In this document: positions 47,573 through 49,316 of the stretch, in pieces
Position numbering within the stretch: position 1 is the stretch's first letter
How the letters are laid out: the number at the start of each line of letters is the position of its first letter
Source of the DNA: Geodermatophilus pulveris
Lineage (GTDB): Bacteria; Actinomycetota; Actinomycetes; Mycobacteriales; Geodermatophilaceae
Direction of reading: 5' to 3'
DNA: 64,000 nt
Assembly: GCF_900188375.1 (NCBI RefSeq)
Contig: NZ_FZOO01000005.1
Span: 1-64,000, forward strand
The notes under the pieces: generated by a model
Databases searched by the model: none
Seen by the model: only the letters and a program-made list of their open reading frames with translations
Told to the model about the DNA's origin: nothing
Translations under genes and position numbers: made by a program

Positions 47573-47616
47573 CTGGGCGTCCGGCAGGTCGTCCGCTCCC
47601 GCCCGGGGGGCGCCGT

Positions 47617-47752
47617 GCCGGATGCCGCCGAGTCGCACACGCGAGCCGGGGACCCACCTGTACCACCGGGGTGAGTCCCGCTCCCGGACACCCGGGAGCG
47701 GGTAGGGCACTCCCAGCCCGAACCCGTCAGCTGACCTGGTAGGCGGCCAGGG
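47617..47752 (+). ncRNA. c-di-AMP riboswitch (ydaO-yuaA type)
   Basis: The conserved blocks of the actinobacterial ydaO element appear in order: GCCGCCGAGTC, GCCGGGGACCCACC, GGGGTGAGTCCC, a variable GC-rich hairpin (CTCCCGGACACCCGGGAG), AACCCGTCAGCTGACC and TGGTAGGCGGC. In actinobacteria this riboswitch precedes secreted cell-wall hydrolases and turns expression off when c-di-AMP is high. It lies 50 bp after the promoter, and about 270 bp of leader separate it from the transglycosylase-like gene. Confidence 0.85.
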
Positions 47753-48024
47753 GAGAACGGAGCACCACTGCGCGCGGGCCCTCAGCGCCCGCGCCCCCAG
47801 GTCCGGGACCGTCGCGCTCCCGCCTGCCCTCACACCAGGACCCCGCCGTCGCACGGCACCCCGCAGCCGGATCGAGCCCGACGTCCGGCCGGTGCCGCGC
47901 GCCCGGCCGCCGATCCCTGCCCGTCCGGCCTCGAGCCACGACTCCCCCGTCCGACCCGCTACCCCGCGCCGTCGGCCGTCGACGCGCGCGTCCACGCGAA
48001 CCGCACCCCCAGGAGAACTGCCCG

Positions 48025-48597
48025 ATGCACGCACGCAGCAGCACCCGCCGCGCCCTGCACCTGCTCACCGCCGCGGGCGCCATGACCGTCGCGCTGACCT
48101 TCACCGGCCAGGCTGTCGCCCAGGCCGCCCCGGGCGACTCCGGCCCAGGTTGGAACGGTGACCGGTCCGACGGGGACCGGCAGCGGTGGGACCGCGACGA
48201 CGCGGCCGACGCCGCGGCGCCCGCCGCCGAGGCCCCCGCTCCGGCACCCGCCCCGGCACCCGCCCCCGCCCCCGCACCTGCTCCCGCACCGGCCCCCGCC
48301 GCCACGGGGGAGCAGGCCTACAAGGACTACGCCGCCGGCCAGGTCGGCGACGCCGCCCAGTTCGACTGCCTCGACGCGCTGTGGGAGGCGGAGAGCGGCT
48401 GGAACCCGAACGCGCAGAACCCGACCAGCACGGCCTACGGGATCGCCCAGTTCCTCGACTCGACCTGGGCGGGCACCGGCATCGCCAAGACGTCGGACCC
48501 GTACCGGCAGATCGACGCCGGCCTGGTCTACATCGAGAACCGCTACGGCAGCCCCTGCGCGGCCTGGTCCTTCCACGAGGCCAACAACTGGTACTGA
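48025..48597 (+). CDS. Secreted transglycosylase-like cell-wall protein
   Basis: The 190-residue protein has a signal peptide (about 1-35, ending VAQAAPG), an acidic/Arg-rich spacer and an (Ala-Pro) repeat of about 22 residues (70-92). A small lysozyme-like domain follows, with LWEAESGWNP (putative catalytic Glu), AYGIAQFLDSTWAG and the closing SPCAAWSFHEANNWY. Two Cys (about 115 and 178) probably form a disulfide. It resembles aggregation-promoting-factor/SLT-type muralytic proteins. AGGAG lies 10 bp before the ATG. The c-di-AMP riboswitch and MtrA-like box upstream fit a cell-wall remodelling role. Confidence 0.85.
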   Translation: MHARSSTRRALHLLTAAGAMTVALTFTGQAVAQAAPGDSGPGWNGDRSDGDRQRWDRDDAADAAAPAAEAPAPAPAPAPAPAPAPAPAPAPAATGEQAYKDYAAGQVGDAAQFDCLDALWEAESGWNPNAQNPTSTAYGIAQFLDSTWAGTGIAKTSDPYRQIDAGLVYIENRYGSPCAAWSFHEANNWY

Positions 48598-48656: not shown

Positions 48657-49316
48657 CTACTGCCGGCCGGGCGGGTGCTCGGCGCGCCAGGCGTCGAAGG
48701 CGTCCAGGAAGGACGTCGCCATCGCCGTCTCCTGCTGCACCTCGTGGCGGTCCCGCTCGTCCACCATCCGGCCGGCCAGCGCCGTGGTGTTCATCTTGAT
48801 CGCCCGGAAGTAGGAGATGAACCGCTCCGGGGTGAAGGCCCGCTCGGACGGCTCCGGGCGCACCCCCTCGGGGCGCCACGGCGCCGGGTCCGGCAGGGCG
48901 GGCAGCCCCAGCCCCTCCAGAGCGGCGAGCACCGGCTCGTCGTCCGGCCGGTCGGTGAAGTCCCGCGACAGCTCGCGGAACACCTCCCGCCCGTCCGGGG
49001 CGAGGGCCAGCACCACCGGCCGGAAGATCGACGCATCGTCGTCCCACGCCGCCAGCGGGCGGGCCAGCCGGGTGCCGTCGGGGTCGCTCACCCAGCGGAA
49101 CGGCAGGTGCCAGGTCTCGTCCATCGCCAGCTGGACCTCCGGCGGGTCGACCGAGGCGAGCACGACCTCCGTGCCGGCTGCGCTCAGCCGGGGCAGCTCC
49201 TGGGCCAGGCGGACCGCCTGGGCGCAGCAGTAGGGCTACCAGTCGCCCCGGAGGCCGACCAGGAGGAGGGCGGCACGATCGTCGGTGCGCAGGGCCAGCA
49301 GGTCGGAGGTGTCCAT
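48657..49316 (-). CDS. Thioredoxin-fold (AhpC/TSA-like) selenoprotein candidate with in-frame UAG at codon 27
   Basis: Translated from ATG 49316 (GGGAG upstream) the protein starts MDTSDLLALRTDD and reaches LLLVGLRGDW. It then meets TAG (49238-49236) and continues in frame as PYCCAQAVRLAQELPRL, ASVDPPEVQ, FRWVSDPDG and PVVLALAPDGREVFRELS to a TGA near 48657, 219 residues in all. Both sides of the TAG are one thioredoxin-like domain, and the TAG sits exactly where the first Cys of a W-C-P-Y-C redox motif belongs, giving W-U-P-Y-C. A SECIS-like hairpin follows. The alternatives are a pseudogene, or a 168-residue protein starting at GTG 49163 that would lack the active site. Confidence 0.75.
49205..49221 (-). 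other. SECIS-like hairpin for UAG-directed selenocysteine insertion
   Basis: On the minus strand, CCAGGC (49221-49216), loop GGTCC, GCCTGG (49210-49205) forms a stable hairpin whose loop starts 20 bases after the TAG. In E. coli fdhF the comparable apical loop GGUCU begins 18 bases after UGA, and the GGU of that loop is what SelB reads. Size, distance and loop bases all agree. The stem can close one more pair to leave GTC as loop. Confidence 0.65.

Follow-up and report, generated by a model that had tools for sequence, protein, structure and literature searches.

In Geodermatophilus pulveris, a reading frame on the minus strand of the window (the whole stretch of DNA that was analysed, 64,000 nt in length) runs from an ATG at 49316, through an in-frame TAG at codon 27 (49238..49236), to a terminal TAG ending at 48657. 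The sequence around codon 27 reads GLRGDW-TAG-PYCCAQAVRLA, confirming an initial annotation in which the frame was described as coherent on either side of the TAG (GDW-TAG-PYCC). The predicted gene (48657..49316, minus strand) would encode a peroxiredoxin-like (Prx-like, AhpC/TSA) selenoprotein of 219 residues with UAG as the codon of residue 27 and TAG as the terminal stop; the in-frame TAG (49236..49238, minus strand) is the proposed selenocysteine (Sec) codon. The plain list of open reading frames holds only a fragment of 168 amino acids at this locus (48657..49163, minus strand), which has a GTG start at 49163 and lacks the active site, as had been anticipated for automatic gene calling. 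Thus, plain gene calling drops the active site of such proteins.

A bacterial SECIS-like hairpin lies at 49205..49221 on the minus strand, with a stem formed by CCAGGC (49221..49216) and GCCTGG (49210..49205) around the loop GGTCC (49215..49211). The stem occupies bases 15-20 and 26-31 past the TAG and the loop begins after 20 bases, so the hairpin is present as first described. One extra pair is closed inside the loop by the energy model. The folding energy of the hairpin alone is within that of shuffled sequences (z -1.01 and -1.07). Similarly, an open frame spanning a TAG is weak evidence when taken alone in the GC-rich DNA of the window, since 36 of its 265 TAG codons, counted over all six frames, are preceded by 25 or more open codons and followed by 150 or more. 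No tRNA was found in the 64,000 nt. Elsewhere in the window, a c-di-AMP riboswitch (47616-47760, plus strand, 73.9 bits) is located upstream of a small open reading frame (48025-48597) whose start, by eye, is signal-peptide-like.

Within Geodermatophilaceae, orthologues were detected at E 1e-10 in 30 of 112 genomes (own included) and 5 of 12 genera, and were missing at this threshold from the other 82 genomes. All 30 carry TAG at the homologous codon and none has a Cys form. The 28 intact orthologues extend 191-195 codons downstream of the TAG, end in TAG (14) or TGA (14), and are invariant over residues 21-38 except for the TAG itself. In eight pairwise comparisons with the window gene, dN was lower than dS both before the TAG (codons 2-26: dN 0.039-0.177, dS 0.268-0.684) and after it (codons 39-219: dN 0.149-0.239, dS 0.429-0.613). 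A protein tree grouped the window gene with ten copies from genus g2, in which the named contigs belong to Blastococcus, with support of 99/97. A scan of named records by two peptide patterns returned matches only in Blastococcus, Modestobacter and Geodermatophilus. Named strains are thereby available for testing whether UAG is recoded in a redox protein. Nothing firm emerged from the gene neighbourhood, which was compared over 22 named loci (L070-L091, flanks of up to 3 kb each) and L133-L136. At E 1e-10, tblastn gave no match in these loci to the upstream luciferase-like gene or the small downstream protein, while an EAL-type neighbour showed 60-63% identity in L085, L090 and L091 and 31% in L135 (all three neighbours named by eye).

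More distant homologues were sought across the phylum. A profile (A2) made from 18 of the 28 intact genes was run against a sample of 396 genomes and matched 39 of them (own included), with 41 matches outside the family. The site codon could be read in 28 of 29 outside loci (all but L124; 12 further matches without a locus were left out) and is TGA in 25 and TGC in three, within the motif GDW-(U/C)-P-(Y/F)-C in every case. The alignment of homologues at codon 27 that had been recommended thus returned TAG in every orthologue and TGA or TGC in the distant forms. Among the 12 matches without a locus, five have a TGA inside and seven have no stop. In total, 30 of the 41 outside matches have an internal TGA and 11 have no stop, so Cys or other forms are more frequent than the 28 readings suggest. 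The TGA homologues also fold a hairpin at this position, and 18 of the 25 have GGTC at bases 21-24; of the three Cys forms, one keeps the hairpin and two have lost it or have a weak one. The initial annotation had considered that its proposal would fail if close relatives proved frame-disrupted with neither Cys nor Sec at codon 27. The picture obtained is one of 28 intact genes out of 30, TAG at the site in all 30, and TGA or Cys outside the family.

The hairpin is covered by codons 29-38. Over these ten codons, synonymous diversity is 0.042 as against 0.272 in the rest of the gene, the lowest of 214 ten-codon windows; the next-lowest windows apart from the hairpin have 0.086 and 0.088. Codon 36 alone varies synonymously in this stretch, with C or T in third position, which leaves the pair as G-C or G-U. 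The six-pair stem is intact in 114 of 114 cells for 19 distinct sequences (16 TAG and three TGA, the latter being L096, L097 and L108, picked from 25 for a same-register stem with the other 22 left out), and versions slid along the sequence reach at most 49.1%. Across these 19 sequences one stem pair appears as G-C, G-U, C-G and U-A. As for covariation among close relatives, a check that had been advised, the TAG orthologues vary between G-C and G-U at one pair only, and the two-sided changes come solely from the three TGA homologues. It is comparison with relatives that sets the TAG and its hairpin apart from chance: every one of the 30 orthologues has the TAG, all 28 distant homologues that were read have TGA or Cys instead, synonymous variation over the hairpin is low, and the stem shows paired changes.

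For analysis with domain programs, the TAG was treated as Cys. The window protein matched the Pfam family AhpC-TSA (PF00578) with E 2e-10 and 41.1 bits, above the cut-off of 26. Its active site reads W-U-P-Y-C-C, and U27-P-Y-C30 is found in all 28 intact orthologues, which places an AhpC-TSA domain together with a U-x-x-C motif. An AlphaFold model had a mean pLDDT of 91.2, and a Foldseek search with this model gave peroxiredoxins as best matches; in the model, the domain begins with a strand encoded ahead of the TAG. The modelled fold is hence Prx-like although the TxxU motif is absent. Two narrower assignments were rejected. Classical peroxiredoxins (T-x-x-C/U) also accept Ser three residues ahead of the peroxidatic residue, and at residue 24, where Thr or Ser would thus be expected, all 28 intact orthologues have Gly. 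The SelL-related redox proteins (NF040769) gave a weak score of 15.6 bits against a curated cut-off of 120. A sequence search of the PDB returned weak matches only, the best being a protein disulfide-isomerase (E 0.00097). The motif of classical selenoperoxiredoxins is given as TxxU in the accessible text of PMC13188914. The original reading as a redox protein holds, with the refinement that the protein is Prx-like with UxxC and is not a classical TxxU peroxiredoxin.

The machinery for Sec insertion was searched for in the genome of the strain (4,379,198 bases in 26 contigs), and the tRNA-Sec with a CUA anticodon, selA, selB and selD, whose presence the initial annotation had proposed to check, were all found in one cluster. 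A tRNA-Sec (RF01852) at C15:57962-58053 scored 64.2 bits against a cut-off of 47; its anticodon is CTA, and ARAGORN labels it as tRNA-Pyl. The RF01852 search of this genome gave eight matches, of which one other exceeded the cut-off (48.2 bits) and was read as tRNA-Ser. The specificity of RF01852 alone is low, with matches at E 0.001 in 14 of 14 control genomes and above the cut-off in five. On one side of the CTA tRNA is selD (TIGR00476, 380.8 bits), and on the opposite side are selA (TIGR00474, 413.8 bits) and selB (TIGR00475, 288.2 bits), each above its curated NCBIfam cut-off, so that the tRNA is placed between selD and selA. The joint absence of selB and a CUA tRNA-Sec, which had been named as grounds for abandoning the proposal, is thus not what the genome holds. 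With the SECIS-like hairpin downstream of the codon, an anticodon-matched tRNA-Sec and selA, selB and selD, the sequence has the components expected of a bacterial Sec insertion system.

In the genomes checked, the anticodon follows the codon. Ten of ten TGA genomes checked were positive for tRNA-Sec, and the anticodon was TCA in 11 of 11 loci. In the family of the window, tRNA-Sec was matched in 108 of 112 genomes, and the anticodons read in 31 loci are CTA in 23 and TCA in eight. Among the 30 genomes with an orthologue, the anticodon was read in seven and was CTA each time; the other 23 have a tRNA-Sec match. Within the family, TCA tRNA-Sec occurs in genera g5, g6 and g7, from which the gene is absent in the orthologue search (E 1e-10), and as a second copy in genome G058. 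Given TAG with CTA inside the family and TGA with TCA outside it, the codon for Sec and the anticodon of its tRNA are judged to have changed together. Seven family genomes of genera g5, g6 and g7 (L041-L046 and L049) carry a UCA tRNA-Sec, and the switch to CUA may therefore have occurred inside the family. The gene would in this way offer a natural record of a change of Sec codon, in which codon and anticodon moved together and the hairpin stayed in place.

Genome G058 has both kinds of tRNA-Sec (L130 = G058:C17:1-14000 and L131 = G058:C11:6000-24000). Its CUA tRNA-Sec lies beside selA, selB and selD, and the second, UCA tRNA-Sec is in a stretch of lower GC content (0.68 vs 0.78). Over 14 kb of this second stretch, selA, selB and selD were not matched at E 1e-10.

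Taken together, these data make it very probable that the window gene encodes a Prx-like selenoprotein in which UAG 27 is read as Sec, and the relatives, the CUA tRNA-Sec, the sel cluster and the hairpin all lend support to the UAG-encoded selenoprotein first suggested for this locus. The argument is built from sequence, namely from a conserved TAG, the tRNA, the sel cluster, a conserved hairpin, and an anticodon that switched in step with the codon. In the proposed mechanism, the gene of this Geodermatophilus-group actinobacterium would yield a selenoprotein with a W-U-P-Y-C active site, its in-frame UAG 27 being decoded as Sec, with insertion of selenium, by a Sec-tRNA with anticodon CUA. 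SelB would deliver this tRNA and recognize the hairpin that starts 15 bases past the codon, and a UAG without such a hairpin, e.g. the last codon of the window gene, would still terminate translation. Judging from the UxxC motif, Sec27 and Cys30 would form a redox pair of attacking and resolving residues, which could react with peroxide or disulfide through a selenenylsulfide.

Several other explanations of the TAG were weighed against Sec insertion. Had a Cys codon simply mutated to TAG in a decaying gene, the extra frameshift borne by two orthologues would find a ready explanation, and it is not unusual in this GC-rich DNA for a TAG to be surrounded by open frame by chance. A pseudogene is nevertheless very improbable, because the TAG is kept in every orthologue in five genera with no Cys form among them, dN is below dS on either side of it in all eight pairs, and the synonymous diversity of the gene reaches its minimum (0.042) over the hairpin. 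A pair of separate products, with termination at the UAG and independent translation of the downstream 168-residue frame, is even less credible. The GTG start downstream of the TAG and the ORF list are compatible with such an arrangement, but the codons before and just past the TAG are conserved along with it, and the fold model puts the domain's first strand ahead of the TAG.

The UAG might otherwise be decoded as pyrrolysine or by another amber-suppressing tRNA, in line with the label that ARAGORN assigns to the CTA tRNA. Against this, the tRNA fits the tRNA-Sec model and its gene is flanked by selD and selA, and the best score of the PylS C-terminal model in the genome was 22.1 bits against a cut-off of 178.15, a score exceeded by one of 14 control genomes. 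Distant relatives have TGA or Cys at the homologous position, and UCA is the tRNA-Sec anticodon in those TGA genomes that were checked. General suppression of amber codons is further opposed by the use of TAG as the last codon in half of the intact orthologues (14 of 28). The chance that pyrrolysine or amber suppression accounts for the codon is accordingly put at next to nil.

In two of the 30 orthologues, the frame is shifted by the loss of one base between the TAG and the hairpin stem (L038 in G104, and L039 and L089 in G029, Blastococcus sp. CT_GayMR19). The deletion is identical in both genomes and lies just ahead of the stem, which is intact, and both halves of each gene are open and conserved. 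The two copies share 74% DNA identity and are not clearly sisters on the tree. Decay, repeated slippage, assembly error or frameshifting are possible origins of this deletion. It is very doubtful that these copies are still expressed, with the hairpin promoting both Sec insertion and a coupled -1 shift; if true, one RNA element would drive two recoding events.

Additional UAG selenoprotein candidates were observed in this and related genomes. In the genome of the strain, a formate dehydrogenase gene (C18:81912-83312; NF041513, 1930.1 bits vs 1400) has one in-frame TAG, followed by a hairpin with the loop GGTCT at 18 bases downstream. Two proteins of the UGSC family (NF041046) have one TAG each in the U-G-S-C motif, one scoring above the curated cut-off (130.5 vs 125 bits) and the other below it (100.4). 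Another protein of AhpC/TSA type, whose in-frame TAG falls at one codon common to all copies, was detected at E 1e-30 in four of 112 family genomes (L142, G029:C16:23269-23748; L143, G040:C8:382694-383167; L144, G052:C9:36284-36739; L145, G111:C22:504631-505098). Three of the copies are 69-74% identical to that of G029, and all four have the identical GAGCTGTCCCAGTTGGGAC hairpin stretch after the TAG. This protein has neither TxxU nor UxxC and is a candidate for a second UAG selenoprotein of the same fold.

UAG-directed Sec insertion in Geodermatophilaceae was reportedly described by Mukai and colleagues in 2016, with a CUA tRNA-Sec and UAG codons in formate dehydrogenase and UGSC proteins. 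All three elements of that system are in the genome of the present strain too. The accessible text of a later paper reports three Geodermatophilaceae genomes with CUA tRNA-Sec and names Mukai et al. 2016 as the source for the formate dehydrogenases and UGSC proteins (PMC5330540, Santesmasses et al., 2017), a citation that agrees with the account of that work in the initial annotation. To this the same text adds, as a finding of its own, an AhpC with Sec-TAG and a bSECIS in Blastococcus saxobsidens DD2.

The AhpC of DD2, as presented in that text, shares with the window gene the UAG Sec codon, the AhpC family, a bSECIS after the codon and a CUA tRNA-Sec. It differs in genome and genus, and the two were matched via the orthologue in genome G009. 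G009 is taken to be DD2, since its transaminase equals PDB 8pnw over all 281 residues except the first (the DNA has a GTG start) and the accessible text of PMC10671532 assigns the 8pnw enzyme to that strain. Of 13 AhpC/TSA matches in G009, a TAG is present in one alone, and this one is orthologous to the window gene at 81% identity, so the family of the window gene is almost certainly that of the published AhpC. UAG-Sec AhpC in Geodermatophilaceae, a rare use of the codon, is thus already known in kind. Among the matches listed in literature searches, whose coverage lay outside subscription papers, there was no other report of a UAG-Sec AhpC gene.

The window protein also fits the Prx-like thiol:disulfide oxidoreductase selenoproteins, on account of the Gly at residue 24 and of Cys30, which makes UxxC. 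These are characterized by PF00578 and UxxC (the table of PMC13188914; PMC9312934, as accessible), and the window protein is alike in its PF00578 match and its U-x-x-C (UPYC), a likeness of domain and motif. They differ in the Sec codon, which is UGA there and UAG here; in the accessible UAG passages of PMC13188914, UAG is mentioned solely as a stop or as a codon engineered to specify Sec. Compared with these known systems, what is new here is the breadth of the family, the match of codon and anticodon, the two frameshifted copies and the second UAG AhpC/TSA family (4 of 112 genomes), and where a single UAG-Sec AhpC had been reported, there are now 30 orthologues that share the UAG position.
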